Shown: piece after piece, positions 14,036 to 60,801 of the stretch
Layout: the number at the start of each line of letters is the position of its first letter
How positions within the stretch are numbered: the stretch's first letter is position 1
Assembly (NCBI GenBank): GCA_021772015.1
Contig: JAETNS010000014.1
Coordinates: 1-62,980 of the forward strand
DNA from: Prevotellaceae bacterium
GTDB taxonomy: Bacteria; Bacteroidota; Bacteroidia; Bacteroidales; Muribaculaceae
DNA length: 62,980 nt
Direction: 5' to 3'
Program-made: the position numbers and the translations under genes
The notes under the pieces: generated by a model
Told to the model about the DNA's origin: nothing
What the model saw: the letters and a program-made list of their open reading frames with translations, nothing else
Databases searched by the model: none

Positions 14036-14227
14036 ACGGATTCCGCAGATAAGGAAAAGTCTCTCGCAGATAAAATAGCTCTCGTAGATAAAAAACTCTC
14101 GCAGATTACACGGATTACACAGATTAACCATCCGGATGGCCAATCTGTGTAATCCGTGTAATCTGCGAGAGTTTTTTATCGATCTTTATTACCAGCAGGA
14201 AATCCGCGTAATCTGCGAGAGATTTTG
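14036..14227. repeat. GATTAC palindrome element R1 (bidirectional terminator-like)
   Basis: A perfect 36-bp stem (14090-14125 with 14142-14177) surrounds the 12-bp palindrome CCATCCGGATGG (14128-14139). Each arm is built from 9-bp units of the type GATTACACG. The outer ends are AAAAAA and TTTTTT, so either strand would give a stem followed by U6. Decayed partial arms flank it (14056-14088, 14199-14221). This is the only one of seven copies at a tandem junction; it lies after the 12191 gene and before the gdhA promoter. Confidence 0.9.
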
Positions 14228-14246
14228 TGGAAAATTTAGCAATTTG

Positions 14247-14278
14247 TTTGGTCGTATGAGGTATTTATTGTAATTTTG
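14247..14278 (+). promoter_or_regulatory. gdhA promoter
   Basis: TTTG (14247-14250), 20-bp spacer, TAATTTTG (14271-14278): a full match to the Bacteroidetes consensus. It gives a leader of about 75 nt before gdhA and lies just outside repeat R1. Confidence 0.8.
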
Positions 14279-14358
14279 CCAGCGTTTTAGGAAACGGGTT
14301 GGCAAAATGACATACAACAGCCCGATATTGCAGTATCTTACAATTTCAAGGTCCAAAA

Positions 14359-15699
14359 ATGAAAGCTTCAGAACTGATGGCCGAGCTTGGCCGACGATTT
14401 CCCAACGAGCCGGAGTATCTACAGGCAGTCGAGGAGGTCGTGACCTCGATAGAGGATGTCTACAACGAGTATCCCGCATTCGAGCGATACAACCTAATGG
14501 AACGCCTTTGCATTCCCGACCGCATCGTCTCTTTCCGCGTAAGCTGGGTGGATGACCAAGGCCGCGTCCGCAACAACATGGGCTACCGCATCCAGCACAA
14601 CAACGCCATCGGCCCGTATAAGGGAGGGATCCGCTTCCATTCGTCGGTCAACCTCTCGATCCTGAAGTTCCTCGCTTTCGAGCAGACATTCAAGAACTCC
14701 CTGACCACTCTCGCGATGGGGGGCGCAAAGGGTGGATCGGATTTCTCTCCCCGTGGCAAAAGCGACATGGAGGTGATGCGTTTCTGTCAGGCATTCATCA
14801 CCGAACTTTACCGCAATCTCGGTCCCAATACCGATGTCCCGGCAGGAGACATTGGTGTCGGCGGACGTGAAGTCGGCTACATGTTCGGCTGGTACAAAAA
14901 GATGACCCGCGAGTTCACCGGCACATTCACCGGCAAGGGGATAGACTTCGGCGGCTCGCTGATGCGCCCCGAAGCCACCGGCTATGGCAACGTCTATTTC
15001 CTGCTCAACATGCTTGCCACCAAAGGAATCGATCTGAAAGGTAAGCGAGTGGCCATCTCCGGCTCAGGCAATGTGGCTCTCTATACCGCCAAGAAGCTCC
15101 TCGAACTCGGCGCAGTGCCCGTCTCCATGAGCGACTCCGACGGCTCGATCTACCTACCCGACGGCATGACCCGCGAGCAGTTTGACCGTATCTTCGAACT
15201 GAAGATGGCCTACCGCGGACGTATCCGCGAATTCGCCGACGAGACCGAAGGATGTCAGTATTTCCCCGGAGAAAGACCTTGGAAGCATGTGGAATGTGAT
15301 ATCGCCATGCCCTCCGCCACCCAGAACGAGATCGACGGCGACGATGCGCGCGCCCTGCTCGCCCAGGGATGCATAGCCGTCAGCGAAGGAGCCAACATGC
15401 CCTCCACCCGCGAAGCAGTCCATGAATTCCTCAAAGCCCGCATTCTCTACGCCCCCGGAAAGGCAGCCAACGCGGGAGGTGTCTCCGTCTCCGGACTCGA
15501 GATGGCCCAGAACGCCCAGATGCTTTCATGGACAGCCGAGGAGGTCGACAACAAACTCCGCCAAATCATGAAGGATATCCACACCCAATGCGAGACCTAC
15601 GGCAAGGAACCGGACGGCTACATCAACTACGTCAAAGGAGCCAACACCGCCGGCTTCATGAAAGTAGCCCGCGCAATGCTCGCCGAGGGCATCAACTGA
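14359..15699 (+). CDS. gdhA: Glutamate dehydrogenase, hexameric NADP-type
   Basis: 446 residues, the usual length for the bacterial hexameric enzyme, which interconverts 2-oxoglutarate plus ammonium and glutamate and is a main route of ammonium assimilation in Bacteroidales. The motifs GPYKGGIRFHSSVN, MGGAKGGSDF (with the catalytic-region Lys) and PAGDIGVGGREVGYM are intact. The Rossmann domain carries GSGNVA near residue 236. NADP preference is inferred from family resemblance. It has its own promoter (14247-14278) and a terminator-like repeat on both sides. Confidence 0.95.
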   Translation: MKASELMAELGRRFPNEPEYLQAVEEVVTSIEDVYNEYPAFERYNLMERLCIPDRIVSFRVSWVDDQGRVRNNMGYRIQHNNAIGPYKGGIRFHSSVNLSILKFLAFEQTFKNSLTTLAMGGAKGGSDFSPRGKSDMEVMRFCQAFITELYRNLGPNTDVPAGDIGVGGREVGYMFGWYKKMTREFTGTFTGKGIDFGGSLMRPEATGYGNVYFLLNMLATKGIDLKGKRVAISGSGNVALYTAKKLLELGAVPVSMSDSDGSIYLPDGMTREQFDRIFELKMAYRGRIREFADETEGCQYFPGERPWKHVECDIAMPSATQNEIDGDDARALLAQGCIAVSEGANMPSTREAVHEFLKARILYAPGKAANAGGVSVSGLEMAQNAQMLSWTAEEVDNKLRQIMKDIHTQCETYGKEPDGYINYVKGANTAGFMKVARAMLAEGIN

Positions 15700-15710
15700 T
15701 CGTTATCGCG

Positions 15711-15894
15711 GATAAAAAACTCTCGCAGATTACGCGGATTACGCAGATTAACCATCCGGATGGCTAATCTGCGTAATCCGCGTAATCTGCGAGAGTTTTT
15801 ATAGATCTTTATTATCTGCGGGTAATCTGCGTATCCGCGTGATCTGCGTGAGGAAACCTGCGGAGAGCGGAGCGAACCGCTTTCCGTGGAATCA
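15711..15894. repeat. GATTAC palindrome element R2 with side module
   Basis: A perfect 36-bp stem (15715-15750 with 15765-15800) around CCATCCGGATGG (15752-15763). The arms are the GCG variant (GATTACGCG units) and end in A5 and T5. A decayed second arm follows (15813-15849), then the side module CGGAGAGCGGAGCGAACCGC ... CCGTGGAATC (15861-15893) that recurs in R4-R7. It lies exactly between the convergent gdhA and yebC genes. Confidence 0.9.
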
Positions 15895-15912
15895 AAAAAA
15901 GACTCTGTGGGA

Positions 15913-23296: not shown

Positions 23297-23317
23297 CATC
23301 CGAAGTTATAACCAACC

Positions 23318-23354
23318 ACAAAGGGGATGCGCCACGATGGCGCATCCCCTTTGT
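23318..23354. terminator. Hairpin terminator between convergent genes
   Basis: A perfect 17-bp stem: ACAAAGGGGATGCGCCA (23318-23334), loop CGA, TGGCGCATCCCCTTTGT (23338-23354). It lies 21 bp after the GLUG gene stop and 20 bp from the convergent lipoprotein stop. It is the only convergent junction in the window without a GATTAC palindrome. Confidence 0.8.
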
Positions 23355-23374
23355 ATATATAAAAGGCAATATTA

Positions 23375-27636: not shown

Positions 27637-27855
27637 TCAGAATCCCGCGATCTCCCCGGCCAGGTCGTTCATCAGCAGGCACTCTCTTCGCGAGAGAAGG
27701 CCTTTTACCGCTGCCGACGACTCACCGCCAGCCCTGCAAGATATAATCAGCAATCGCCCCTCGGCGCATAGGGCGAAATCATGGCCGGAGGGCTTGAACC
27801 GCTCCCCTATCGGCTCATTGGTTATGAGTATGATATTGCCGCCGCCAGCCTGTAG
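27637..27855 (-). pseudogene. Frameshifted C-terminal remnant of the REP-associated transposase
   Basis: On the minus strand, one base out of frame with the upstream transposase frame, there is an uninterrupted reading frame that overlaps its last codons. It includes GGGNIILITNEPIGERFKPSG and FALCAEGRLLIIS, and ends at a TGA at 27637-27639. From memory, full-length Bacteroidales members of this transposase family end in a domain with a similar ERFKPSG/CAEGRLL signature. The spacer that should join the two halves (about 80-100 residues) is missing. I read this as an internal deletion that also shifted the frame. Confidence 0.65.
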
Positions 27856-35550: not shown

Positions 35551-35655
35551 ATAAAAAAGTCTCGCAGATTACGCGGATTACGCAGAAGCCATACGGTTTA
35601 GAACCCAAATGGTATAATCTGCGTAATCCGCGTAATCTGCGAGACTTTTTATTAT
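35551..35655. repeat. GATTAC palindrome element R3, variant core
   Basis: A perfect 33-bp stem (35554-35586 with 35618-35650) of the GCG variant, with A and T tracts at its ends. Unlike the other six copies the centre is not CCATCCGGATGG. CCAT and ATGG are kept but separated by 15 bases. No side module. It lies between the convergent GlmU-like and SGNH-hydrolase genes. Confidence 0.88.
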
Positions 35656-49169: not shown

Positions 49170-49248
49170 ATACCTTTATTCTGAATCTCCAATCATACTT
49201 CGCGGACTACGCAGCTTTCATCGAAAAGCGCATGGTCCGCATTTTTTA

Positions 49249-49482
49249 CCCACAGATTTCGCAGATAGGAAGAGATCTCACAAATTAAAGATAAAAAGCT
49301 CTCACAGATTACACGGATTACACAGAAAACCATCCGGATGGTCTCTGTGTAATCCGTGTAATCTGTGAGAGCTTTTCCTATCCGTGTAATCTGTGAGAAC
49401 CTTCCTATCTGCGTAATCCGCGTAATCTGCGAGACAAAATACACTCGGAGAGCGACAGCGAACCGCCGGATTCTGTGGAATC
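49249..49482. repeat. GATTAC palindrome element R4, nested, with side module
   Basis: The inner stem of the ACA variant (49293-49327 with 49343-49376) surrounds CCATCCGGATGG (49330-49341). Further right-hand arms of both ACA and GCG variants follow (49379-49400, 49405-49435), with decayed left partners (49251-49290). The side module ACTCGGAGAGCGACAGCG ... GTGGAATC lies at 49442-49482. It is between convergent mdh and the ECF sigma gene. Confidence 0.87.
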
Positions 49483-49487
49483 GGCAT

Positions 49488-49521
49488 AAAAAAGCGGCGT
49501 TTCCCGGAAAGGAACGCCGCT
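49488..49521 (-). terminator. Terminator for the ECF sigma gene
   Basis: AGCGGCGTTTCC pairs with GGAACGCCGCT (49493-49521). On the minus strand it is followed by six Ts (complement of 49488-49493). It lies 118 bp past the sigma gene stop. Confidence 0.7.
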
Positions 49522-49638
49522 GTGAGTCTATTACATTATAAGCTCTTGGTACAGACAAAAAACAGATGTCTGCGGATATGATTTATTAGAGCAGAGTAAA
49601 TCTATGAGTTTTGGCTTTTGAGGGGAGCCGTGGGGTAA

Positions 49639-50139
49639 TCACCTGTAGTCTTTGAGCATCTTCTGGAGACGCTGGCGGGCGAAAAAGATACGGCTCTTTA
49701 CGGTGCCGAGGGGAAGATTCATCTTCTCGGCGATCTCGTTGTACTTGTAACCGGCGACATGCATCGTGAAAGGAATGCGGTAGTCGTCAGAGAAGGAATT
49801 GATGGCTGCAGAGATCTCACCGGCAGCTACAGTGCCTTCGGGTGTGTCGAGACCTGACTCCTGGGGAAGGTTGAGGTGGTAGAGATCCTCGGTCTGGTCG
49901 ATGATCGTTGCCGAACGGACAACCTTGCGGTAGTTGTTGATGAAGATGTTGCGCATGATGGTGAACACCCATCCCTTGAAATTTACATTCTCTACATATT
50001 TGTCCTCGTTGTCGAGAGCCTTGAGGGTCGTGTCCTGCAAAAGATCATACGCGTCGTCGCGGTTGGAGGTAAGCAGATAAGCGAAGTTCAGAAGATTGCT
50101 CTGAAGGTCTAAAAGCTTTGTTTGGAAATTCTGGCTCAT
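49639..50139 (-). CDS. ECF (group 4) RNA polymerase sigma factor
   Basis: 166 residues with only sigma regions 2 and 4. Region 2 spans about 12-80 (NLLNFAYLLTSNRDDAYDLLQDTTLKAL ... NFKGWVFTIMRNIFINNYRK). Region 4 is at about 110-160 (YNEIAEKMNLPLGTVKSRIFFARQRLQKML). It is a transcription initiation factor. No anti-sigma factor or sensor gene adjoins it, unlike most ECF loci. It resembles the conserved stand-alone Bacteroidales ECF factors, but I cannot tell which one. It has a strong promoter (50208-50238) and a perfect TTTGTAACA inverted repeat about 390-410 bp upstream of its start. Confidence 0.92.
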   Translation of the reverse strand: MSQNFQTKLLDLQSNLLNFAYLLTSNRDDAYDLLQDTTLKALDNEDKYVENVNFKGWVFTIMRNIFINNYRKVVRSATIIDQTEDLYHLNLPQESGLDTPEGTVAAGEISAAINSFSDDYRIPFTMHVAGYKYNEIAEKMNLPLGTVKSRIFFARQRLQKMLKDYR

Positions 50140-50207
50140 AATTGTAATAGTTGAAGGTTTGTGTTTGAAGTTTGAGATGTTTTTGTAACAACTTTGTGAC
50201 TACGACG

Positions 50208-50238
50208 CAAAGGTACACACAATTTTTGAATCTCCAAA
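50208..50238 (-). promoter_or_regulatory. ECF sigma gene promoter
   Basis: Minus strand: TTTG (50238-50235), 19-bp spacer, TACCTTTG (50215-50208), a full housekeeping-consensus match 69 bp before the start at 50139. Confidence 0.78.
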
Positions 50239-50656
50239 TTTTTTCGCAACTTTTTTTCATATTTTTGAAAAAATATTTTTATAAAAATACAACTATCTAT
50301 CATTCAATATATTATATAAGATAATCAATTTTACATTACTGTTACATATTACTTTCATCACGAGTAACATCTTTACATATTACCATTAACATTCTAATAA
50401 TAAGGATATTACAGAATTACACGCCTCATTATATACAATCATATTTCTACAACAAATAAATCATTTCCGCCATCAAGCAAAAATAATTTATATTTAAACA
50501 CCCAAACATTATGTTTTTAAGCACATCTTTGTAACACAGATGTTACAAACACCGTAACAACACAAAATTCAACCTTGTTACAAAATTATCTCAACAAAAA
50601 CCGTGAACAATCTCCGTCGTGGCGGCAATGTCGACAAAACGAAAACTCAAGGTTTA
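50239..50656. promoter_or_regulatory. AT-rich intergenic region with GTTAC/GTAAC motifs
   Basis: This ~420-bp gap is very AT-rich and codes for no convincing protein. It holds a perfect inverted repeat TTTGTAACA-CAGA-TGTTACAAA (50528-50549) and further GTAAC/GTTAC words near 50341, 50364, 50554 and 50578, plus one within the sigma leader (50186). It is likely an operator region for the sigma gene, but no experiment is implied. Confidence 0.4.
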
Positions 50657-51529
50657 TCAGAACTCGGAGAAAAGTGTCGGTTTTATCACGATTCCGACAC
50701 GTATATGTGAAGAATAAGTCTTGTAAGCCAGAAGACCTTCACCATACCCATTGTAAAACTGCATGAAAAGATACTGGTTTGACTTGGTAGACCATCGCCA
50801 GGCCGCTTCAATACATGTGTTATAATTGAAAAGCCCCTTGGCACGGCGGGTCAGCGTCACACCAAGCGACAATTTGCGGTTGGATGACTGAAACTGCCAT
50901 CCGAATTGATATATGCCGCAGTATTTAAGTATGTCCTTATTGTTGACCCCGTCGATGATAGGTATCCAGAATTTTCCGGACACAACAAAGTTGGGATCCA
51001 CCATAATGCTGCCGCCGAAACTCACCTTGTTCCATGAGCGGCTTTCGTCGCCGTCTCGACCATTGCTCTCATGCTCGAGGATGAGATTGATTTTGCCGAT
51101 GAAACGGTCCTTGACAAACAATGGCTTTGTCAGGCCGATACCGGGATTGAAGTTGAGATCGGTCATCGGCATGGAATTCTCCAGCACATTCCAGAAAACC
51201 TTCTGAGTATAAAACAGATAGAGATACGTCCCCCAAGGGAGAGTGGACTTGGTCAGCTTCTGGGCAATCGAGATCTGAAACTTTATGTTGGTGTTGTGTT
51301 TGTCAGGCTTCTTGTTTACCGGAGGGCCGAAGATGAAGTAATTGTCTTTGTAGAGACCGAAATAATAATGCTGGTCGGCAAAAGCCCGCTTAAGGGAGTC
51401 AGTGTTCAGACGTTGTTCGGAGGGAATCTCAAGAATCTGCGCATCCATGCGCTGACCGAAAGCCAGCCACACAAGCAGGAAAACCAGGAGCAGGGCCGCT
51501 CCGCGCAGTCTCGTCATCTTCTCTCTCAT
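50657..51529 (-). CDS. pldA: Outer-membrane phospholipase A
   Basis: 290 residues with an N-terminal signal (ALLLVFLLVWLAFG) and a beta-barrel rich in aromatic amphipathic strands ending in Phe. The catalytic region HESNGRDGDESRSWNK carries the family His-x-Ser and Asn/Ser-Arg-Ser-Trp signature of OMPLA. It hydrolyses phospholipids that reach the outer leaflet. The barrel length is close to the usual ~270-290. It is monocistronic with a -7 box at 51603-51596 on the minus strand (TAATTTTG). Confidence 0.9.
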   Translation of the reverse strand: MREKMTRLRGAALLLVFLLVWLAFGQRMDAQILEIPSEQRLNTDSLKRAFADQHYYFGLYKDNYFIFGPPVNKKPDKHNTNIKFQISIAQKLTKSTLPWGTYLYLFYTQKVFWNVLENSMPMTDLNFNPGIGLTKPLFVKDRFIGKINLILEHESNGRDGDESRSWNKVSFGGSIMVDPNFVVSGKFWIPIIDGVNNKDILKYCGIYQFGWQFQSSNRKLSLGVTLTRRAKGLFNYNTCIEAAWRWSTKSNQYLFMQFYNGYGEGLLAYKTYSSHIRVGIVIKPTLFSEF

Positions 51530-51595
51530 ATATTATATAGCGGTTGAAACTGAAAGTCTAACATCCCGGAGGGGACTGAGGTTTTGTTTCGGGTG

Positions 51596-51627
51596 CAAAA
51601 TTAATCAAATTCCCCCTCCGTAGCAAC
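51596..51627 (-). promoter_or_regulatory. pldA promoter
   Basis: Minus strand: GTTG (51627-51624), 20-bp spacer, TAATTTTG (51603-51596). The -33 is imperfect. The 344-bp gap (51530-51873) also holds a repeated ATATTGGCC word (51634, 51654) and, for the plus-strand gene, only a weak TAATTTTA at 51776. Confidence 0.6.
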
Positions 51628-51873
51628 AATCCATATTGGCCATAAAAGCCAAAATATTGGCCTTATAGGCTTCCGAAAGGCTTCCCGTGCAAAAAACGAC
51701 CCATAAAACAACAATTTAATTAAAAACATGTTGTTAAACACCCGCTCCACGCAATGCCATGTTAAAAAATAATAGTAATTTTACCGTCCATTTCAGGGCT
51801 TGGATCGATCGCGGTTCTTAAAACCCTGAAAATCCAATCTCGATTAATCTTAAACTTAACAAATCCAAACCTT

Positions 51874-53049
51874 ATGAAGAAACTTTTACTCTCTGCCCTT
51901 TGCTTCGCGGGAGCGGTTTCGATGGCCACCGCCGCAGACACCGTCCTCGATGTCAACAACGCATCAAACTTCGACGGAACTCTCATTGAGGAAAAACCCG
52001 CAGAAGGCAGCAGCAATGGGGAAGCCAAACATTATTCCCCCATCAACTCCCTTGAAATCGACGGTTACAAGTTCTCATTCACCAAAGGAGGAGCCGGTTC
52101 CAACCCTGCATATTACTGGTCGATGTCAACATCGGCGACCCAGCAGCAGACTATCCGCGTCTATGGCAAAGCTGACAAAGATGGCAATACAATGACCATC
52201 ACAGCCCCCGAAGGTGTTACGTTCGGCACCATCGAGTTCACAGGTTCAAACGGAGCTGCCAATGGCGTTGTCAATGCATCTGTGGGTGCTTGCGAAATGA
52301 CCTCTAAGACTGAAATGACATGGAAAAACGAAACCGCAGTCAACACTGTCACACTGACATTCAAGCAGAACTTCCGCATCACCAAGATGACCGTCAAGAG
52401 TGAAGGCGGCGTAGTTACCCCCCCCGAAGAACCCGAAACAATCAAGTTCGTCAAGGCTACCACCATCGAAAACGGTCTCTATGTTTTCGTTGTCAATGAA
52501 GAAGGCACCCAGAAACTTGCCCGTCCTTATATAGGAACCCAGGCTTACGGCCGTATGAACCTCACTGACGCTACTTTTGAAGGTGAAGATGTAGTTACCG
52601 AAGAGGAAAACGCATTCGAGTTGGCAGTTGCTGACGGCAAAGTCACCATCAAGAACGGTACCAACTACTACTCGATGGACAACAGCCACTTCACCTCGTT
52701 CCAGTTCTATGCTGATCCCACCGAAGGAAGCTACTGGACATATGAGTTCGTGAATGGCGAAGTTAAGTTCACCAACGTCCTCAACCCGACCTGCATCATC
52801 GGCCAGAGCAAGGGCAACCAGGGAACATGGTACACCAACGTCGCTCCCGCCAATGCTCCCGAGGAATACAACCTCCCGGCCCTCTACAAGAAAGCAGGTA
52901 GCTCTGCCATCGCAGCTGTCGAGGCTGACGTTGATGCCAACGCTCCCGTGGTTTACTACAACCTCCAGGGCCAGCGCATAGCCAACCCCGAAAACGGCCT
53001 CTACATCCGTGTTCAGGGCAGCAAGGTAGAGAAAGTAGCCATCCGCTGA
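51874..53049 (+). CDS. Secreted protein of unknown function with short T9SS sorting domain
   Basis: 391 residues with signal peptide MKKLLLSALCFAGAVSMATA. A beta-sandwich-like first half (about 25-180; VTFGTIEFTGSNGAANGVVNA) and a second module (about 190-345, with KNGTNYYSMDN) carry no enzyme motif that I recognise. The end VVYYNLQGQRIANPENGLYI is a short-type sorting domain like that of the 38662 protein. Codons look like those of well-expressed genes. It ends before a good hairpin terminator and repeat R5. Confidence 0.75.
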   Translation: MKKLLLSALCFAGAVSMATAADTVLDVNNASNFDGTLIEEKPAEGSSNGEAKHYSPINSLEIDGYKFSFTKGGAGSNPAYYWSMSTSATQQQTIRVYGKADKDGNTMTITAPEGVTFGTIEFTGSNGAANGVVNASVGACEMTSKTEMTWKNETAVNTVTLTFKQNFRITKMTVKSEGGVVTPPEEPETIKFVKATTIENGLYVFVVNEEGTQKLARPYIGTQAYGRMNLTDATFEGEDVVTEEENAFELAVADGKVTIKNGTNYYSMDNSHFTSFQFYADPTEGSYWTYEFVNGEVKFTNVLNPTCIIGQSKGNQGTWYTNVAPANAPEEYNLPALYKKAGSSAIAAVEADVDANAPVVYYNLQGQRIANPENGLYIRVQGSKVEKVAIR

Positions 53050-53138
53050 CAAACCCACATTCACACGGTTTCGGACGTGTGATACCACCATCTTGTAAAG
53101 CACTCGTTAAATAATAAACGACAACTTTACTTTGCTCG

Positions 53139-53176
53139 CAGTGGCGCAGACGATCGTCTGTGCCACTGTTTCATTT
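53139..53176 (+). terminator. Terminator of the 51874 gene
   Basis: Stem CAGTGGCGCAGACGA / TCGTCTGTGCCACTG (53139-53168), loop-less 15-bp palindrome with one wobble pair, followed by TTTCATTT. It lies 89 bp after the stop. Confidence 0.75.
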
Positions 53177-53178
53177 CC

Positions 53179-53495
53179 ACCCACGCAGATCTCGCAAAGA
53201 GTGTCTTAGTCTTTAGAAGAAGCTCTCGCAGATTACGCGGATTACGCAGATTAAAATAACCTCTCGCAGATTATATAAATTCGAAAGCCTCTCACAGATT
53301 ACACGGATTACACAGATACCATCCGGATGGCTATCTGTGTAATCCGTGTAATCTGTGAGAAACTTTCTAATCTGTGAGAGGCTTTCTAATTCATGTAATC
53401 TGTGAGAGGTTATTTTAATCTGCGTAATCCGCGTAATCTGCGAGACAAAAAAGACACTCGGAGAGCGAAGCGAACCGCAAGCTTCGTAGGATTCA
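53179..53495. repeat. GATTAC palindrome element R5, three nested layers, with side module
   Basis: CCATCCGGATGG (53319-53330) is the centre. The inner ACA-variant arms are 53288-53318 and 53331-53360. A middle, more decayed layer is 53261-53285 with 53367-53408. The outer GCG-variant arms are 53221-53257 and 53410-53445. The side module ACTCGGAGAGCGAAGCG ... GTAGGATTC is at 53456-53494. The whole palindrome is over 220 bp. It lies between the convergent 51874 and M48 genes. Confidence 0.88.
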
Positions 53496-53530
53496 TGAAA
53501 GCCACATGACGGTTCAATGGATCCGCGTGA

Positions 53531-53574
53531 GAAAAAGAGAAAGGCTTTCCCGCGACGAGACGGGGAAGCCTTTC
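53531..53574 (-). terminator. Terminator of the M48 gene
   Basis: GAAAGGCTTTCCCG pairs with CGGGGAAGCCTTTC (53539-53552 with 53561-53574; one wobble). On the minus strand CTCTTTTTC follows. It begins 26 bp past the M48 gene stop. Confidence 0.75.
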
Positions 53575-53599
53575 ATCTATTTATTTCTATAAGAGCGGG

Positions 53600-54394
53600 T
53601 TACTCGGGACGGGCTATGCCGTCTTTCTGGGCGCGCTCCGAGAGGCGTTTGATTCGGTCCTTGGTTTCAGGATGGGAGGAGAACATCTTCTGATAATAGC
53701 TGCTGTTGCTGCCGGAGTTTCCTTCAAGCTCAAGGAACTTCTCGAACGACATCACCATTCCCCAAGGATTCTTGCCGTGGCTTTTGAGGAACTCATAACC
53801 GTAATCGTCTGCTTCCTTCTCCTGCTTCTGGGAGTATTTCGCGCCGATAAGGGCCTGCCCCATGTCGCCGAGCACAGACTCGCTGAGAGCCTGGGCGGTG
53901 CCACCGGTCGACGCGATACCATCTTTCAAAGCCCCGGTCAGAAGTTCGGTCTTGAAAGCTTTCTTGGAATGACGCTTGGCGACATGGCCGATCTCATGGC
54001 CGATGATACCTAACAGTTCATCGTCACTCATGATATCCATCAGCGAGGAGAAAACCCTGACACTGCCGTCGGGACATGCGAACGCGTTGACATCAATGAC
54101 ATCGTATACCTTGAAATTCAAGGGGATACCGTCAACCTCGGTCAAACCTTCGGTCAGGCGGCGAAGACGCTGGGTATAAGGATCATCCTCTCCGGGGACA
54201 GGATTGTGCTTGTCCATCCAGTCGACCGACTCCTTGACATAAGCGGCCATCTGCTCGTCGGTGAGGGTTGCAGCCTGCACACCCTTCTTAGCCGCGTCAA
54301 GGGCCTTGCCGAGCTTGAACTGGGCCTGAACCTGCTGACCACCGACAAGGGCCATCAAAGCGATTGAAAGTGTAAGGAAAATCTTTTTCATCAT
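53600..54394 (-). CDS. Secreted M48-family metalloprotease
   Basis: 264 residues from ATG 54394 (MMKKIFLTLSIALMALVGG), a clear Sec signal; the frame is open to 54427. The zinc motif is GIIGHEIGHVAKRHSKKA (HEIGH) with a downstream EADDYGYEFL supplying the third ligand Glu. No transmembrane helices follow, so it is a periplasmic or lipoprotein-like relative of BepA/LoiP proteases that act in envelope quality control. It is divergent from the 54510 gene across a palindromic promoter and ends at a terminator plus R5. Confidence 0.9.
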   Translation of the reverse strand: MMKKIFLTLSIALMALVGGQQVQAQFKLGKALDAAKKGVQAATLTDEQMAAYVKESVDWMDKHNPVPGEDDPYTQRLRRLTEGLTEVDGIPLNFKVYDVIDVNAFACPDGSVRVFSSLMDIMSDDELLGIIGHEIGHVAKRHSKKAFKTELLTGALKDGIASTGGTAQALSESVLGDMGQALIGAKYSQKQEKEADDYGYEFLKSHGKNPWGMVMSFEKFLELEGNSGSNSSYYQKMFSSHPETKDRIKRLSERAQKDGIARPE

Positions 54395-54470
54395 GTTTGA
54401 ATATTGATATAATGATTGATTATACATGAATGTAAGTCGGAAGAGTCCCGAAAGACCTCCGTTAAGTCAT

Positions 54471-54489
54471 GCAAAATTACTAATTTTGC
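54471..54489. promoter_or_regulatory. Divergent promoters with palindromic -7 boxes (M48 / membrane protein)
   Basis: The 19-bp perfect palindrome GCAAAATTACTAATTTTGC contains TAATTTTG in both directions (minus 54479-54472, plus 54481-54488), one base apart. The layout is the same as at 34278-34296. Neither side has a good TTTG at -33. The plus gene would start about 20 bp later, at ATG 54510. Confidence 0.7.
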
Positions 54490-54509
54490 GTGGTAAAACC
54501 TCAACATCA

Positions 54510-55145
54510 ATGGCAAAATCAAATACAAAAACCGTCTGGAAATGGCTGCTCTTCGGGTTTGGGGTAGCTATATTGCTGTTCCTGATAGGTGGAATCTTCT
54601 ACATCCTTGACTCGACAATCGTAAACCGATGGGTATTCTTCGGAATTGTGGCAGCTGTGGCCGCAGCCACCGGCACAGTCCTCCACAGCGCATGGGACAA
54701 GCTAACCGGATGGGGAAAGTTCTACCTCAACTACCCTCTTCACATCGTCGTCGCGTCGATCGTCTTGTCATCCGCATTCCTGATGGGAAATTATTTCGGC
54801 ACCGATTTCGAATCCCTGCCGGAGGAAAAGGTGATCATAGAGAAACGTTTCACCCAGACCCGCTATCACACAAAACGCGCCACTCGGCGCGTCTATACCC
54901 GAGGCGCGCCTTACAAGGTTTATTTTCTTGAGGTATCGCTGCCCGACGGTAAACGTACAGATGTCTTTGTCAAGAAGACGGTCTATGACAAGGCCCTCGC
55001 CGGGGACACCGCCACGGTACGTTTCGGACGTGGAGTCCTGTCTCTCCCGGTCCTCGATCCCCACTCCCTGACTCTCCTCCATCCCCATTCCAAATCCAAA
55101 AAGCACCGTTCACGCTGCAAGTTCTTCGGCACCACCCGCTCTTGA
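54510..55145 (+). CDS. Membrane protein of unknown function
   Basis: 211 residues (MAKSNTKTVWKWLLFGFG). Three transmembrane helices lie near residues 12-32, 40-58 and 72-92. A soluble domain follows (YKVYFLEVSLPDGKRTDVFVKKTVYDKALAGDTATVRFGRGVLSLPVLDPHSL), then a basic His/Lys/Arg-rich tail. The start at 54510 is set by the promoter at 54481-54488, which lies inside the longer open frame from 54426. I do not recognise the family. It ends upstream of repeat R6. Confidence 0.75.
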   Translation: MAKSNTKTVWKWLLFGFGVAILLFLIGGIFYILDSTIVNRWVFFGIVAAVAAATGTVLHSAWDKLTGWGKFYLNYPLHIVVASIVLSSAFLMGNYFGTDFESLPEEKVIIEKRFTQTRYHTKRATRRVYTRGAPYKVYFLEVSLPDGKRTDVFVKKTVYDKALAGDTATVRFGRGVLSLPVLDPHSLTLLHPHSKSKKHRSRCKFFGTTRS

Positions 55146-55152
55146 CCTCACT

Positions 55153-55415
55153 CCCACGGATTCCACTTAGTTTTCGTTTCTCTGCGCCCTCCGAGTGTCT
55201 TACCCACGCGGATTTTCAGTAAAAGCTCTCGCAGATTACGCGGATTACGCAGATTATAATAACCTCTCACAGATTACATAGATTAGAAGGCCTCTCACAG
55301 ATTACACGGATTACACAGATAGCCATCCGGATGGTTTCTGTGTAATCCGTGTAATCTGTGAGAGCTTGTTTTAATCTGCGAGAGGTTATTATAATCTGCG
55401 TAATCCGCGAGTCAA
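55153..55415. repeat. GATTAC palindrome element R6, nested, side module on the left
   Basis: Centre CCATCCGGATGG (55323-55334) with inner ACA-variant arms 55291-55320 and 55337-55366. Outer GCG-variant arms are 55225-55256 and 55389-55412. A decayed middle layer lies between. The side module, here reverse-complemented (GGATTCCAC ... CTCCGAGTGTC), is at 55158-55200. It lies between the convergent membrane-protein and beta-barrel genes. Confidence 0.87.
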
Positions 55416-55418
55416 ATT

Positions 55419-56138
55419 TTACCACTCGAAGGAGAGGGAGGCACCGATCGCGCTTAGAGTCTGGTTGTTGTCGTAATACCAGTAATTGTTGTCGGAGGTG
55501 ATCAACAGGTAGGCCACGCCGATGTTGAGGGCCTGGCGGGGATTGCGGCTGTTGATGGGTATCCGCGCCCCGATAGCGGGACGGAAATAGAAGTTGGTGT
55601 TGTTTGACAGCCAGCCGTCATCAGTACGCATGTAGCGGCTTCCTACAAGCCATGTGGCTCCCAACCGCAGGTCTACAAAGAAAGAAGCCGATGTCGGGGA
55701 GTTTCCCGTCGGTATGTTGAACCGGAAATCGGTGAAGACCGGGATCATCACCCCCGTCTTCTTGTTGCCATATCGGGAGGAATTGCCCCAGCCGTTACCC
55801 CATCCGCTGTCATTCCAATCAACCGGGATATTGTCATCAACGGAGGATCTCACTATATCGACTCCGAGACCGGCCCCCATGTAGAACCAGTCGGTGTATT
55901 GATATCCCTGGGATGTCGAGATCTCCACATGATTGAGCTTCGAGGAGCCGACTCCGGCCACTCCCATCAACTCCACCGAACCTTTATACCGACCCGATCC
56001 CGACAATGCCGGGGAAATAAGGCTCTGCAACTGATTGGCGGCCTGCCAGTACTGGGCATCAGCCTGCGGAGCGAACGTGGCGGCCAGCGCGACGGCTGCC
56101 ATAGCGCCAATCATCTTTCTGGAAAATCTGACTCTCAT
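55419..56138 (-). CDS. Outer-membrane beta-barrel protein
   Basis: 239 residues with signal peptide ending near AAVALAATFAPQADAQ. Alternating amphipathic strands (YTDWFYMGAGLGVDIVRSS; SASFFVDLRLGATWLVGSRY; GVAYLLITSDNNYWYYDNN) and a terminal SLSFEW with a C-terminal aromatic residue fit a small 8-10 strand barrel. No specific family signature was seen. Its role (porin-like, adhesion or structural) cannot be stated. It directly adjoins the R6 palindrome. Confidence 0.8.
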   Translation of the reverse strand: MRVRFSRKMIGAMAAVALAATFAPQADAQYWQAANQLQSLISPALSGSGRYKGSVELMGVAGVGSSKLNHVEISTSQGYQYTDWFYMGAGLGVDIVRSSVDDNIPVDWNDSGWGNGWGNSSRYGNKKTGVMIPVFTDFRFNIPTGNSPTSASFFVDLRLGATWLVGSRYMRTDDGWLSNNTNFYFRPAIGARIPINSRNPRQALNIGVAYLLITSDNNYWYYDNNQTLSAIGASLSFEW

Positions 56139-56213
56139 GATCCGGATTCTTTAAGTAATTTTGACCAGTTAATTCTCTGCAAATATAATCGATTTCAGCG
56201 GCTTAAAGTTCAT

Positions 56214-56245
56214 TTTGGTAAAAAGGGACAGATTTGTTAACTTTG
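56214..56245 (+). promoter_or_regulatory. yfhO-like gene promoter
   Basis: TTTG (56214-56217), 20-bp spacer, TAACTTTG (56238-56245). ATG 56254 lies only 8 bp after the box, which would make the mRNA almost leaderless. The next in-frame ATG, 56296, would have a normal leader. Confidence 0.75.
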
Positions 56246-56253
56246 TGGCTATT

Positions 56254-58881
56254 ATGAAGACCGAAAACCAGACAAGCCTCTCGAAGAGGTTGAAAATGAT
56301 ACCGCAGACCGCGGCCGATTACCTTAAAAAGCCGCAAGTATGGGGATTTTTCGTCTCCCTCGCTGTCATAGCCCTGCTGTCAGTGGCGTTTTTCCATCCT
56401 GACGCGTCGGAAGGGAACCAGCTCCGACAGCATGACATGCAACAGGGGGCTGCCATCGGACAGGAGGTGAAGGCATACCTGGAGGAAAATCCCGGCGCGG
56501 AGGAACCGCGATGGACCAACTCGCTGTTCTCCGGCATGCCGACATTTCAGATCTCCCCCTCTTACCCATCAGACTCGCTGTTCAGCTGGATAACGACGCT
56601 GTATGGGGCGGGACTCCCCTCCCCCTCAAATCTCCTGTTCATGATGATGACGGGAATGCTGATCATGCTGCTGGCGATGAAAGTCAGATGGTATTACGCC
56701 TTGATAGGAGCTGTCGCCTGGGGCTTCTCATCCTACTTCATAATAATAATCGGCGCGGGCCACATATGGAAATTCGTCACTCTGGCCTACATCCCGCCGA
56801 CCATCGGGGGAATTGTGATGGCCTATCGCGGACGCTGGCTTGTCGGTAGCGCTCTGGCCGCGCTCTTCGCCATGATGCAGATACAGAGCAACCACGTCCA
56901 GATGACCTATTATTTCCTGTTCGTGATCCTCGCACTGATAATCTGCTACGCCGTCGACGCTGTCCGCCGCAAGAAATACACCCGCTTCGCCAAGGCAACC
57001 GGGGCATTGGCCGTGGCCGCTGTCCTGGCCGTATGCGCCAATCTGCCAAGCCTTTACAACACATGGAAATACTCTAAAGAGTCGATGCGCGGCAGCCATA
57101 CCGAACTGACCGTTGAGGGAGCGGAGAAACAGAAGACCGCCGGACTCGACCGCGATTATATCACCCAATACAGCTATGGCCGCGCGGAGTCATTCTCTCT
57201 GCTGATACCCAACATAAAGGGAGGCGCGTCGGCCCGGCCCGTCAGCGGCAGGATGATACCTACTTCCGTAATGGAGGTTGACGGAGCCGACGAAAAAGCC
57301 GTCAGCCTCAACGAAGCCGAACGGCAGTATGTCACCGACTACGCAGGGCAATATTTCGGCGAGCCGGAAGGCACCAACGGCCCGGTTTATGTCGGGGCGG
57401 TGATCTTCGTGCTGTTCCTGTTGGGATGCTTCATAGTACGCGGGCCGCTCAAATGGGCATTGCTGGCGATGACCCTCCTGTCGGTGCTGCTTGCCTTAGG
57501 CCGCAACCTGCAATGGCTGACAGACTGGTTCATCGACTATATACCGATGTACAGCCGTTTCCGCACCGTCGAGAGCATCCTGGTCATCGCTGAATTCACC
57601 ATGCCGGTGCTCGCCATCCTCGCCCTCCAGAAACTTCTGACCACCCCCAAGGCGTTCGACCGTTATTTCAAGCCTATATGTGTGGCCTTCGGAATCGTCG
57701 CCCTGTTGTGTCTGGCCGGATGGGCTATGCCGTCAATCTACGGACCGGCCATCTCCGAGAGCGACATACAGATCTCCGACATGATAGCCCAGCAGCTGCG
57801 GATGGCCGGATATCCCCCGGAAGCCACATCGGTCTTCTCGATCAACAACCCCGCTATCGCGCAGTTTGTCTCCGATGTCCGCTACGACATGGTTTCCGCC
57901 GACTCCCTGCGGTCGCTGATATTCGTGTTGCTGACTTTCGGTGTCCTCTGGCTCTGTCTGAAAGAGAAATGCAAGGCATGGCAGGGGGCTGTCATGGTCG
58001 GACTGCTTGTGGCCGTCGACCTCTACAGCGTCGACAAACGGTATCTCAACCACGACAGTTTCTGTCCGCCGGAGCTGTCGGCTTCCGATCCTTTCCCGTT
58101 AAGCGACAATGACCGGCAGATATTGGCAGACACGGCCATGAACTACCGCGTGATGGACATACCGCGTTTCTATGCCGCCGAACCTTCCTACCACCACAAG
58201 ATGATCGGGGGCTACCATGCCGCGAAACTCACCCGTTACCAGGATCTCATAGACCGGCATCTGGGTAATTTTGCCCGTGGAGGGGAGATCAGCCAGGCTG
58301 ATTTCAATATCCTCAACATGCTCAACGCCAAATATCTGATAACCGGCGACAATTCCCTGATGGTCAATCCCGAAGCGCTCGGAAACGCCTGGTTTGTAGA
58401 CCGCGTGGTGCCGGCTGACGGTGCTGATGCGGAGATGGCCGCTCTCGACACCATCAATCCGACCGTGACGGCAGTAGCCGACCGCAGATTCGCCGACATG
58501 CTGAAGAATGCCACCACCGGGAAAGTCGCCGGAGACACCATCTTCGAGACCTCATACGCTCCCGGCTACCTAACCTACTCCGCTTCCACCCGAAACGGCG
58601 GCGTGGCTGTCTTCTCCGAGGTATATTTCCCTTGGGGATGGGAGGCACAGATCGACGGCAAACCTGCGGAGATAGCCCGCGTGAACTACCTGCTTAGGGC
58701 ATTGGCCATCCCGGCAGGGCGGCATAAGATCGAGATGCGTTTCAACCCTCGCTCCGTGTCGGCTACCGTCGGAATAGCCAAGTGGTCCGTGATACTCATT
58801 TACGCCTCACTGGGAGCCGCGCTCCTGTGGCTGCTATTGTGTCCCGCAGTTGTAAACCGAAAACCGGAGCCAAGAAAATGA
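56254..58881 (+). CDS. YfhO-family multi-spanning membrane protein
   Basis: 875 residues from 56254 (or 861 from 56296; see promoter note). About a dozen hydrophobic helices from residue 25 to 600, followed by a soluble region with FNPRSVSATVG and one more helix near the end. The family signatures LYSVDKRYLNHDSFCP and NMLNAKYLITGDN are present. YfhO relatives are GT-C-like membrane glycosyltransferase homologues implicated in polymer or lipoteichoic decoration. In Bacteroidetes the substrate is unknown. The stop overlaps the start of the next gene (ATGA), which implies translational coupling. Confidence 0.88.
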   Translation: MKTENQTSLSKRLKMIPQTAADYLKKPQVWGFFVSLAVIALLSVAFFHPDASEGNQLRQHDMQQGAAIGQEVKAYLEENPGAEEPRWTNSLFSGMPTFQISPSYPSDSLFSWITTLYGAGLPSPSNLLFMMMTGMLIMLLAMKVRWYYALIGAVAWGFSSYFIIIIGAGHIWKFVTLAYIPPTIGGIVMAYRGRWLVGSALAALFAMMQIQSNHVQMTYYFLFVILALIICYAVDAVRRKKYTRFAKATGALAVAAVLAVCANLPSLYNTWKYSKESMRGSHTELTVEGAEKQKTAGLDRDYITQYSYGRAESFSLLIPNIKGGASARPVSGRMIPTSVMEVDGADEKAVSLNEAERQYVTDYAGQYFGEPEGTNGPVYVGAVIFVLFLLGCFIVRGPLKWALLAMTLLSVLLALGRNLQWLTDWFIDYIPMYSRFRTVESILVIAEFTMPVLAILALQKLLTTPKAFDRYFKPICVAFGIVALLCLAGWAMPSIYGPAISESDIQISDMIAQQLRMAGYPPEATSVFSINNPAIAQFVSDVRYDMVSADSLRSLIFVLLTFGVLWLCLKEKCKAWQGAVMVGLLVAVDLYSVDKRYLNHDSFCPPELSASDPFPLSDNDRQILADTAMNYRVMDIPRFYAAEPSYHHKMIGGYHAAKLTRYQDLIDRHLGNFARGGEISQADFNILNMLNAKYLITGDNSLMVNPEALGNAWFVDRVVPADGADAEMAALDTINPTVTAVADRRFADMLKNATTGKVAGDTIFETSYAPGYLTYSASTRNGGVAVFSEVYFPWGWEAQIDGKPAEIARVNYLLRALAIPAGRHKIEMRFNPRSVSATVGIAKWSVILIYASLGAALLWLLLCPAVVNRKPEPRK

Positions 58882-59528
58882 AACGACTGACCCGACGATT
58901 CAGCAATCTGGTGAAGTGGCCACGCCGCTATCGTACAAGCCGTGGTTTCGGAGTCCACTCCCCTTTCGCCTTTGAATTCATAACGAGAGTGTTGCGTGAC
59001 CGCGACGCTTACTATTACGCTTATCCGGAGATTGACTCCCTCTGCGGGAAGACCCACCGCGACACGTTACTTGACAACATGGTCTTCTCCGCCTCCGACT
59101 ACGAGCGGCAAGAGGCGAGGATGCTGTTCAGGATGCTCTGCCGTTTCAATCCCGACCTTGTCATCGAGATCGGCGGGGGCAATGAGGTCAGCCGCATAAT
59201 AATCGAGCGGGCTATACCCCACGCCAAACTACACCGCTGGTCAAGGGATAATCCTACAAAGATCGAGACCTCAAAGCCCTGTTTCATAATCGTAAATTAT
59301 ACCGTCGATATAAACTTCACTATTGTAAGGAGTTATCTTCTGGAAGCATTGAAGCATCCGCAAGGAGTCGTCATTTTCTTCCGCAACATGCACCTTCCCA
59401 TACTCCACCGCCTCTGGGACCAGATATCGTCAGTGGCACCTTTCGGCATGACTTTCCACGACGATGTGACGGGTGTCTATGTGGCTTTTCCGAAGCTGCC
59501 ACGAGAGGATTTCGACATCCATATCTGA
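58878..59528 (+). CDS. Class I SAM-dependent methyltransferase-like protein
   Basis: 216 residues (MKRLTRRFSNLVKWPRRYR). GFGVHSPFAFEFITRVLRD is the marker of a Bacteroidetes family annotated as class I methyltransferases, and VIEIGGGNEVSRIIIERA resembles the SAM-binding motif I. The acidic motif II is less clear, so activity is not certain. It overlaps the yfhO-like stop by 4 bases (ATGA) and is followed 24 bp later by xerD, so the three form an operon. The earlier start at 58782 lies inside yfhO and is not used. Confidence 0.78.
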   Translation: MKRLTRRFSNLVKWPRRYRTSRGFGVHSPFAFEFITRVLRDRDAYYYAYPEIDSLCGKTHRDTLLDNMVFSASDYERQEARMLFRMLCRFNPDLVIEIGGGNEVSRIIIERAIPHAKLHRWSRDNPTKIETSKPCFIIVNYTVDINFTIVRSYLLEALKHPQGVVIFFRNMHLPILHRLWDQISSVAPFGMTFHDDVTGVYVAFPKLPREDFDIHI

Positions 59529-59552
59529 TCACACACGACGGGAAGAGGAGAA

Positions 59553-60494
59553 ATGAGAGATATCGATGACATCCCGCGCATCAGGCGTTCATTCCTGGGA
59601 TATCTTACATTGCAACGCGGACTCTCGGAAAACACGCGCGAGGCTTACGGAATGGATATCGACAAGCTCTTCGCCTGGCTTTCGTCGGGAAGGGAGGACG
59701 GGGCAGTGAGGCTCCGAGATGTCGATTACAATATCCTTCAGGAATTCATGGCGGCTGTGCATGACATCGGAATAGCTTTACGCTCACAGGCACGGCTTGT
59801 AAGCGGGATAAAGCAGTTTTTCCACTTCCTGCGTATGGAGGGATACATCGATGTGGACCCTTCGGAGCTGCTGGAGATTCCGAAGATTGGCCGTCACCTG
59901 CCGGAAGTGCTGTCTGTCGAGGAGATCGACGCGATGATATCCGCCATTGACCTCTCCACTCCCGAAGGGATCCGCAACCGGGCGATCATCGAGACCCTGT
60001 ATGGATGCGGTCTGCGGGTCTCCGAGCTGGTCAACCTCGAGATCTCGAAAGTGTATCTCGACGAGCAATATCTGATTGTCGACGGGAAGGGTGACAAGCA
60101 ACGCCTCGTGCCGATGTCCGGGATATCGATCGACCGGATAATGGAATATATGGAGGAAGCCCGTTCAAAGACCGAAGTGAAACCGGGAGAGGAAAACATA
60201 CTGTTCCTCAACCGCCGTGGATCACGTCTGACGCGCCAGATGATATTCACTATCATACGCCGCCTGGCTCTGCAGGCCGACATCCGCAAGAAGATCTCCC
60301 CACACACACTGCGCCACAGTTTCGCCACCCACCTGCTCGAAGGGGGAGCAAACCTCCGCGCCATCCAGCAGATGCTCGGCCATGAGTCTATCTCCACAAC
60401 GGAGATCTACCTCCACCTCAACCCCACCCTCCTCCGCTCCCAGATCCTCCTCCACCATCCCCGCAACCATCCCTCCCACCCCGCTCTCACCTGA
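59553..60494 (+). CDS. xerD: Tyrosine recombinase XerD
   Basis: 313 residues, slightly longer than usual owing to a Pro/His tail. It has an N-terminal SAM-like core-binding domain (LSENTREAYGMDIDKLFAWL) and catalytic residues in order: Arg in LYGCGLRVSELVNL, Lys in GKGDKQRLVP, HTLRHSF, LGHESISTTEIYLHL with the Tyr nucleophile. Length, position and fit to XerD rather than phage integrases support the chromosome-dimer-resolution role at dif; I saw no dif site in the window. It is last in the yfhO operon and faces repeat R7. Confidence 0.93.
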   Translation: MRDIDDIPRIRRSFLGYLTLQRGLSENTREAYGMDIDKLFAWLSSGREDGAVRLRDVDYNILQEFMAAVHDIGIALRSQARLVSGIKQFFHFLRMEGYIDVDPSELLEIPKIGRHLPEVLSVEEIDAMISAIDLSTPEGIRNRAIIETLYGCGLRVSELVNLEISKVYLDEQYLIVDGKGDKQRLVPMSGISIDRIMEYMEEARSKTEVKPGEENILFLNRRGSRLTRQMIFTIIRRLALQADIRKKISPHTLRHSFATHLLEGGANLRAIQQMLGHESISTTEIYLHLNPTLLRSQILLHHPRNHPSHPALT

Positions 60495-60498
60495 TTAC

Positions 60499-60801
60499 AA
60501 GGAATGCTGTTCGCTGCGCTCTCCGAGTGTTTTGCTCTCGCAGATTTTTCAGTAAAAGCTCTCGCAGATTACGCGGATTACGCAGATTAAAATAACCTCT
60601 CACAGATTAAAAGACCCCTCATTAAAAGATCTCTCACAGATTACACGGATTACACAGATAGCCATCCGGATGGTTTCTGTGTAATCCGTGTAATCTGTGA
60701 GAGCCTATTTTAATCTGCGTAATCTGCGTAATCTGCGTAATCTGCGTAATCTGCGAGAACTTTTACTGAAAGCGCAGCGAACCACAAACTTCGTGGAATC
60801 C
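60499..60801. repeat. GATTAC palindrome element R7, largest copy, side module on both ends
   Basis: Centre CCATCCGGATGG (60662-60673), inner ACA arms 60629-60660 and 60676-60702. Outer GCG arms are 60558-60590 and 60709-60757; the right one has five tandem TAATCTGCG units. Beyond them TTTTTCAGTAAAAG pairs with CTTTTACTGAAAG, and GTTCGCTGCGCT (60510) pairs with AGCGCAGCGAAC (60771). The whole palindrome is about 300 bp. It lies between convergent xerD and a lipoprotein gene. Confidence 0.88.

Follow-up and report, generated by a model that had tools for sequence, protein, structure and literature searches.

The window, a stretch of 62,980 nucleotides from a Prevotellaceae bacterium, contains seven GATTAC palindromes (R1 to R7), and all seven that had been described at the outset were found (Table 1). 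Their repeated unit is conspicuous against chance, as GATTACRCRGATTA at no more than two mismatches has 46 matches in the window compared with a mean of 1.18 over 100 shuffles, and CCATCCGGATGG, previously described as usual in the copies, is present in six of the seven, R3 being the exception. The start coordinates first assigned to the copies took in degenerate outer flanks. The perfect 36-bp stems attributed to R1 and R2 hold for the outer part but not further inward, where the R2 stem runs unbroken for 36 bp, then has one mismatch and a further 6 bp, and the R1 stem by hand count has 39 bp, two mismatches and 6 bp. R2 separates a 446-aa gene (14359-15699), which we take to be gdhA, from a YebC-family gene. 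According to a codon-model gene finder the window has seven junctions of convergent genes, of which six contain a copy as had been described, with R1 at a tandem junction; the seventh convergent junction (23297-23374) has an unrelated hairpin at 23318-23354, again in agreement with the initial account, and no copy lies inside a gene called by this model. An Rfam search of the window returned one tRNA and nothing else.

Table 1. Palindromes of the window and neighbouring hairpins.
Feature	Position	Strand	Description
R1, palindrome of CRCRGATTA words	14087..14180	.	47-nt arms, no spacer; tandem junction
R2, palindrome	15715..15800	.	43-nt arms, no spacer; convergent junction
R3, palindrome	35554..35650	.	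perfect arms of 33 nt, spacer 31 nt; convergent junction
R4, palindrome	49294..49435	.	perfect arms of 33 nt, additional arms at right; convergent junction
R5, palindrome	53224..53445	.	nested arms, outer 78 nt at 95%; convergent junction
R6, palindrome	55226..55411	.	nested arms; convergent junction
R7, palindrome	60559..60757	.	nested arms, outer 47 nt at 94%; convergent junction
Ordinary hairpin adjoining R4	49494..49521	-	context, identified by eye
Terminator-like hairpin, left side of R5	53138..53169	+	context
Terminator-like hairpin, right side of R5	53539..53574	.	context

The regularity of the repeat in one window had suggested many copies per genome, and genome-wide we counted 25 two-armed copies, exclusive of any lost at contig ends, together with one single-armed (C2:66292) and one diverged copy (C2:70858). 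Using the codon model, the one of our two gene callers (the other being longest-ORF) on which final junction counts are based, 12 of the two-armed copies are at convergent junctions, 11 at tandem, one at a divergent and one at an ambiguous junction, the callers disagreeing or the genes being weak at C13:34872, C13:99928, C21 and C27. The predicted preference for gene ends extends to the whole genome. Of the classified copies, 12 of 24 are at convergent junctions, a class that accounts for 22 of the 138 junctions in the retrieved stretches and for 10 of the 114 there without a copy, a background that is not a random sample because the stretches were picked around copies. Among tandem copies, the stop of the upstream gene is the closer end for 10 of 11. 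The seven palindromes belong to a repeat family that is better read as having landed at gene ends.

The preliminary description left undecided whether the copies were mobile repeats kept as terminators or had evolved as terminators, and proposed a search for empty sites. In sister species, as far as orthologous gene ends could be checked, there is no copy corresponding to R3, R4, R6 or R7. With gene order identical, the R6 junction is 273 bp here and 7-34 bp in three sister species, and the R7 junction is 38 bp in the sister species G012; flanks at these short junctions are too diverged for a target site duplication to be read. Not every site is recent, since sisters also have palindromes at the right-hand gene of R2, C2:72854 and C2:75262. 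The initial interpretation is partly supported. Of its two options, that of mobile repeats retained at gene ends fits better, given the absence of these four copies at orthologs and the ordinary hairpins adjoining R4 and R5; insertion is a better account of the copies than terminators evolving where they stand. That selection for good bidirectional intrinsic terminators made unrelated sites alike would agree with the bias toward gene ends and with the strong stems and flanking T-tracts of R1-R3, but near-identical sequence at mutually unrelated junctions, the empty sites, and the standard hairpins next to R4 and R5 weaken this reading, as does the count of copies with T-tracts beyond both cluster ends, 8 of 25 (R1-R3 among those in the window), and we consider it improbable. 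The stem length needed for termination is far below that of the palindromes here. A terminator scan of 49000-61000 gave 14 predictions compared with 11.8 in shuffles, which is no excess, with a tool that cannot score loopless stems. A terminator role fits R1-R3 best, and such copies may, once inserted, act as terminators in both directions. An even less probable explanation has the RAYT-like transposase of the window (27822-28364, minus strand) moving the palindromes as REPINs. This gene is the sole Y1_Tnp match of the genome and its contig has 7 of the 25 copies, but it lies 7 kb from the closest GATTAC copy, its matches are weak (Y1_Tnp 26.9 bits; REP_Tyr_transpos 42.7 bits, cut-off 80), and it is flanked by an unrelated inverted repeat of its own (28422-28456/28512-28546), where in a REPIN/RAYT system the dispersed palindrome itself would border the gene of the tyrosine transposase. 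That flanking repeat was not found elsewhere in the stretches of this genome that were examined.

A different gene adjoins such a palindrome on another contig (C2:72998-73375). It is the only GxxExxY gene of the genome (TIGR04256, 148.9 bits against a cut-off of 35; PF13366, PDDEXK_3, 143.2 against 22) and encodes a PD-(D/E)XK-like protein of about 125 residues, a family in which E27 (53/54), D67 (53/54), E77 (54/54) and K79 (52/54) are near-invariant and presumably catalytic. The gene stands beside a palindrome at the same locus in this genome and in G012, and G007 retains the palindrome at that locus and has no GxxExxY gene. In the two genomes with the gene it adjoins a whole palindrome rather than lying between two arms, and these loci score nothing in our flank test (L106, z 0.2; L109, z -0.2). 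An AlphaFold2 model built from four sequences has a mean pLDDT of 39, and a PDB search by sequence gave no match at E 1. In viral contigs, none of 22 stretches matching the GxxExxY pattern was confirmed and the exact GATTAC pattern had no match, and we found no papers in the open-access literature on GxxExxY function or DNA surroundings.

Across Bacteroidota, GxxExxY genes are bracketed by inverted arrays of 'CRCNNA' words, each 8-10 nt long. The words have the predicted orientation at 43 of 54 loci, the opposite at 6 and a zero score at 5 (54 of 57 loci were scored, L114, L122 and L184 being skipped), and among loci with flanks unseen when the motif was chosen the prediction holds for 27 of 29. 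An orientation score of at least 5 was reached by 22 of 54 GxxExxY genes, 1 of 184 control ORFs, 0 of 216 shifted pseudo-genes and 0 of the 24 PF05635 loci scored out of 30, and a score of -5 or lower by 10 control ORFs, 6 pseudo-genes and 1 GxxExxY gene. The flank test, covering 47 of 58 GxxExxY and 23 of 30 PF05635 loci (the others being near contig ends, too long, ORF-less or N-rich), is equally strong for PF05635 genes (13 of 23). When loci were found by the repeat alone, GxxExxY adjoins it in 5 of 45 (L056, L065, L070, L074 and L092). The gene is present in 186 of 395 sampled genomes, and against this base rate all nine further genomes with GATTAC arrays have it (p 0.001). CACAGAG arrays, a pattern taken from flanks in the same genome sample so that some matches are the genes' own flanks, occur in 87 of 186 genomes with the gene and in 11 of 209 without it (permutation within families, p 5e-5), with 642 of 672 arrays in gene-positive genomes. 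Similarity of proteins correlates with that of their words in a test of co-evolution (Mantel r 0.30, p 0.0015), mostly from near-identical pairs, and the word of one genome (G016) showed no dispersal, its three hits all being at its gene. Palindromes without the gene also occur in other genera. Lack of SbcD is linked to a possible tolerance of long palindromes; SbcD (TIGR00619) was above cut-off in none of 14 genus genomes, with sub-threshold matches in three, and this result does not separate genomes with palindromes from those without.

We lean toward a reading, based on sequence comparison, in which R1-R7 are gene-less copies of a hairpin element on which GxxExxY probably acts, helping it to spread. 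The element would have arms made of arrays of 8-10-nt words beginning with CRC (here CRCRGATTA); the protein would recognise words of this type as a hairpin and cut or process them, so that copies spread, and insertion directly after gene ends would be either tolerated there or targeted at terminator hairpins already standing. Protein and hairpins would then work in the manner of REPIN/RAYT, with a different protein. Alternatively, and on present evidence doubtfully, GxxExxY genes could be passengers that landed or survived in hairpins made and spread by another activity. Genomes with palindromes but no PF13366 match (G007, G431 with 16 array hits, and G216 with 5) would suit passengers, as would the PF05635 four-helix genes, which are likewise enclosed by inverted arrays, made of words of a different type, so that the habit is common to two unrelated genes. 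Passengers would not readily account for a word type that tracks the gene family in the orientation scores, for a tie between gene and arrays that holds within families, or for the conserved active site of GxxExxY. Somewhat less likely still is that these proteins serve as nucleases for a hairpin element of a new class, which inserts into the loops of hairpins already present, whether terminators or earlier copies, and so makes palindromes grow centrally in layers, with PF05635/IVS as a parallel second system. Nested layers in R5-R7 and copy-specific outer stems in the gene-less palindromes of G431 and G309 point this way, with outer-stem scores of at least 8 at 8 of 30 sites (G431 5 of 6, G309 3 of 5) compared with 0.9% of mismatched pairs, the scored sites having plus words ahead of minus words and one-armed, reversed and mixed arrays being left out. 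However, none of 19 sites in other genomes reaches 8, the signal is weak in the present genome (at least 6 in 8 of 25, compared with 8.2%) and absent from G012/G007 (2 of 17, compared with 21%), G431 itself has no PF13366 match, and copying of flanks by fold-back would give the same picture.

The link of the GxxExxY gene to palindromes and word arrays is new, and could not be seen from the window alone, the gene being on another contig. If the partnership we favour is correct, the same repeat is at six of seven convergent junctions of the window because it was inserted there, the REP/RAYT idea widens to a repeat whose partner protein is nuclease-like, GxxExxY gains a testable substrate, and the odd 'CACAGAG' and 'GATTACGCA' repeats of bacterial genomes may be explained.

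The repeats around GxxExxY genes across the phylum hint at a gene-and-repeat partnership akin to REP/RAYT, with a different protein. In REPIN/RAYT systems (PMC3116915), REP doublets go together with REP-associated tyrosine transposases, and a GTAG/CGTC-type tag at one end is reported (PMC3733652). The present palindromes resemble them in being dispersed, extragenic, hairpin-forming and tied to a particular gene, with many in one genome (25 two-armed copies), but the partner here is the PD-(D/E)XK-like GxxExxY rather than a tyrosine (HUH) transposase, and the arms are arrays of 8-10-nt words with a total length of up to about 220 nt. The intervening sequences (IVS) of 23S rRNA (PMC4990558) have an S23 ORF and occupy rRNA helices that formerly had a small tetraloop; they share with the present elements a small ORF within inverted repeats forming a long stem, but the present sites lie between genes, a different protein family is involved and most copies are ORF-less, and the PF05635 gene of this genome (at C36) has other words in its flanks. 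The BrickBuilt MITE of Porphyromonas gingivalis, with 19 copies, is likewise a species-restricted intergenic Bacteroidales element with tandem units and small inverted-repeat ends, and is distinguished by a 23-nt tandem unit, a leader and tail and promoter activity, its abstract naming no partner gene (PMC4596501). A MITE-type relation, of ORF-less elements to one with a gene between similar ends, may apply: the gene lies between inverted arms in many genomes and gene-less palindromes occur as well, and in the present genome the gene is beside a palindrome. Bidirectional intrinsic terminators are alike in location, and in the stem and A/T tracts of R1-R3; in contrast to these, the palindromes share one recurring sequence, are absent from orthologous junctions and have much greater length, and 8 of 25 have a T-tract at each side.

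The seven GATTAC palindromes announced in the preliminary description (R1-R7) are present in the window, where 46 unit matches occur against 1.18 expected, and the convergent junctions of the window, seven in number, do carry a copy in six cases, the remaining one bearing a hairpin of another kind. R1 lies between tandem genes. The perfect 36-bp stems attributed to both R1 and R2 were found as such in R2; the uninterrupted stem of R1 is longer, at 39 bp. R5-R7 have a nested architecture, with outer arms of CGC-type words, inner arms of CAC-type words and the centre CCATCCGGATGG. A second word block, GGTTCGCTCCGCTCTCCGAGTG or GATTCCACGGAA, recurs in either direction outside many copies. The anticipated abundance extends to the whole genome (G000; 2.86 Mb, 48 contigs), which holds 58 unit matches and 25 two-armed clusters, plus one single-armed cluster (C2:66292) and one diverged copy (C2:70858). 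Fourteen of the 25 copies lie in two stretches making up about 6% of the genome, seven in the 63-kb window contig and seven in C13:1-100100. Counted by junction type, as had been proposed, and with a codon-model gene finder, the 25 copies comprise 12 convergent, 11 tandem and 1 divergent, and C13:9543 is inside a called gene by this model and intergenic by the first caller; at C13:34872, C13:99928, C21 and C27 the two callers are discordant and the neighbours are weak gene calls. The background in the same stretches is 22 convergent junctions of 138 (Fisher p 1e-5, indicative since the stretches were picked around copies). Ten of the 11 tandem copies are closer to the upstream gene's stop than to the next gene's start, the sole exception being the copy that precedes a gene for GxxExxY (TIGR04256/PF13366), a PD-(D/E)XK-like protein of about 125 residues.

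Sister stretches syntenic to window positions 48171-61609 were retrieved by similarity to the window and not by repeats; those for the remaining copies had been picked for their repeats, so these copies were excluded from the insertion test. The suggested search for empty sites, made here in sister species (G007, G012 and G013), was informative at R6, where gene order is identical and the junction of 273 bp measures 16 bp in G012, 34 bp in G007 and 7 bp in G013. The R7 junction is 320 bp against 38 bp in G012, and no unit was found at the 3' end of its left gene in G007 or G013. At R4 the 3' ends of both genes, where found in the three sisters, lack units and carry ordinary hairpins (by eye); an ordinary hairpin also adjoins R4 itself. 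No copy was found at the R5 site in G007, the G012 site holds related arrays and contig ends, and R5 has terminator-like hairpins at both neighbours. The 3' end of the left gene at R3 is without a copy in G007. Other sites are shared: the right-hand gene at R2 (YebC family) has palindromes in both G012 and G007, with none at the left-hand gene, presumably gdhA, in either; at C2:72854 and at C2:75262 a palindrome is present in G007 too, and at C2:72854 in G012 as well; and the right-hand gene at C13:3393, which we take to be leuS, has one in G012 and none in G007. Among 13 congeners the strict GATTAC pattern matches in G007 and G012 only. Unit pairs are of CGG type in 44 of 51 cases in G000, and of CAG type in 21/21 in G012 and 11/13 in G007, counts that include duplicates from overlapping stretches. 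The C2:72854 copy is likewise CGG in G000 and CAG in both sisters, a pattern that homogenisation of copies within each genome would produce.

The only PF13366 gene of G000 encodes GxxExxY (148.9 bits, cut-off 35) and starts about 30 bp downstream of a palindrome. G012 has the gene at the same locus with 72% identity, the neighbours having 93-97%; G007 has the palindrome there and no GxxExxY gene. In G000 and G012 the gene adjoins a whole palindrome rather than sitting between two arms, only a degenerate arm being seen by eye 3' of the gene, and a comparison of the upstream with the reverse-complemented downstream 300 nt is flat (z 0.2 and -0.2). In G008, the third congener with the gene, strong inverted arms enclose it (z 47.5), and the strict GATTAC pattern finds no match.

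Across 395 sampled Bacteroidota genomes, the flanks of 28 GxxExxY genes (30 loci were taken, and at two of them no gene could be read) hold differing words of one style, with CRC-starting words of 8-10 nt 5' of most genes and the reverse complement 3'. The flank comparison exceeded z 5 at 16/47 GxxExxY genes, 13/23 PF05635 genes and 2/138 control ORFs of G000. When occurrences of C[AG]C[AGT][AGT]A were counted with a sign for their orientation relative to the gene, the sum was positive at 43 of 54 GxxExxY loci, negative at 6 and zero at 5; among 29 loci with flanks unseen at the time of motif choice, a few of them mutually close relatives, 27 were positive and 2 negative. Scores of 5 or more occurred at 22/54 loci, against 1/184 control ORFs, 0/216 shifted pseudo-genes and 0/24 PF05635 genes. 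GATTAC arrays are present in 10 of the 395 genomes including G000, and all nine others have GxxExxY (base rate 186/395, p 0.001). For arrays of another word pair, CACAGAG-CACAGAG, a pattern derived from flanks of the same sample and hitting in part the genes' own flanks, 642 of 672 hits fall in gene-positive genomes (reversed control pattern, 38 hits); such arrays occur in 87/186 gene-positive and 11/209 gene-negative genomes (p 4e-23), and at least 10 hits in 20/186 and 1/209, respectively. Within 24 informative families, gene and arrays coincide in 72 genomes against 55.7 expected (permutation p 5e-5). Among loci of other taxa that were retrieved through the repeat alone, GxxExxY stands next to the repeat in 5/45, one in a Cloacimonadota MAG. 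Genes of the PF05635 four-helix (IVS/S23) family likewise lie between inverted short-word arrays, of another word type such as AATTATGAATTATGAATT. The order-level relative G048 (4.6 Mb), with 12 PF13366 and 15 PF05635 matches (L105, L122, L130), is a good genome in which to study gene-word pairs.

Coordinates of the main features (window positions unless a contig of G000 is named)
Feature	Location	Remark
Second word block GGTTCGCTCCGCTCTCCGAGTG / GATTCCACGGAA	15866-15905, 49450-49485, 53458-53490, 60499-60530, 60770-60800	
Second word block GGTTCGCTCCGCTCTCCGAGTG / GATTCCACGGAA	C27:54000-54401	present twice
GxxExxY gene	C2:72998-73375	
RAYT-like (Y1_Tnp) gene	27822-28364 (-)	
Inverted repeat of RAYT-like gene	28422-28456/28512-28546	
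PF05635 genes with inverted arrays	L155 (G000:C36:44666-44980), L133-L162	13/23 scored z>5

The most likely link between gene and words is that GxxExxY would cut or process word hairpins, and that this processing would drive the spread of copies. E27, D67, E77, K79, Q91 and Y95 are conserved in 52-54 of 54 GxxExxY proteins, the first four presumably being the PD-(D/E)XK catalytic set, and a dN of 0.24 with saturated dS between G000 and G012 points to constraint. That GxxExxY is instead a passenger in hairpins spread by another activity seems to us possible, if doubtful; as exceptions to the tie between gene and arrays, no PF13366 match was found in G431 or in G216, which have 16 and 5 array hits, respectively, and dispersal of the word of another genome, G016, was not found. 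The RAYT-like transposase gene of the window is the only Y1_Tnp gene of G000. It is very improbable that it moves the palindromes as REPINs, as it has an inverted repeat of its own that is unrelated to GATTAC.

A more specific proposal is that GxxExxY proteins are nucleases of hairpin elements that insert into hairpin loops, palindromes growing centrally in layers, with PF05635/IVS as a parallel system. CACAGAG palindromes too short for a gene occur in G250, G309, G216, G431, G352, G439 and others, and in G431 and G309 a further inverted repeat, varying from copy to copy, lies outside the arms. Outer-stem scores of 8 or more were obtained at 8/30 palindromic sites, against 0.9% in mismatched pairs, these being 5/6 sites in G431, 3/5 in G309 and 0/19 in the remaining genomes; the sixth G431 site (L242) shows, by eye, outer pairing with an offset. 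The signal is weak in G000 (mean 4.1 vs 2.5; top scorers C2:70858 and R1) and absent in G012/G007 (3.35 vs 4.67). Copy-specific outer stems are what would remain if an element had inserted into the loop of a hairpin already present, with fold-back copying of flanks as an alternative source. Outer stems are shown by sites of G431 and G309 only, for which reason our estimate of the loop-insertion proposal is slightly lower than at first; we consider it unlikely. Reversed CACAGAG arrays, with minus words before plus, the opposite of the usual palindrome, were seen at L228, L253, L258, L259 and L276.

With hairpin processing by GxxExxY as the preferred reading, a terminator role is plausible as a by-product for R1-R3, since T-tracts lie on both strands of these clusters, as they do in 8/25 copies overall. 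In none of the 14 genomes of the genus does a match to SbcD (TIGR00619) exceed the cut-off, which may let long palindromes persist.

In the open-access literature we found no description of the words, of GxxExxY or PF13366/TIGR04256, or of such repeats; the name GxxExxY occurs in two papers, in one as a reverse transcriptase neighbour (PMC8934634; the other is PMC12085832), and a Bacteroides fragilis study (PMC3090145) used a PCR primer that includes a CACAGAG-type string. BrickBuilt is the nearest described Bacteroidales intergenic element that we encountered (PMC4596501). The IVSs of 23S rRNA, reported to replace small tetraloops (PMC4990558), offer a precedent for loop insertion. The working proposed here resembles that of REPIN/RAYT systems as outlined in PMC3116915, although the present palindromes do not have a RAYT-family partner.
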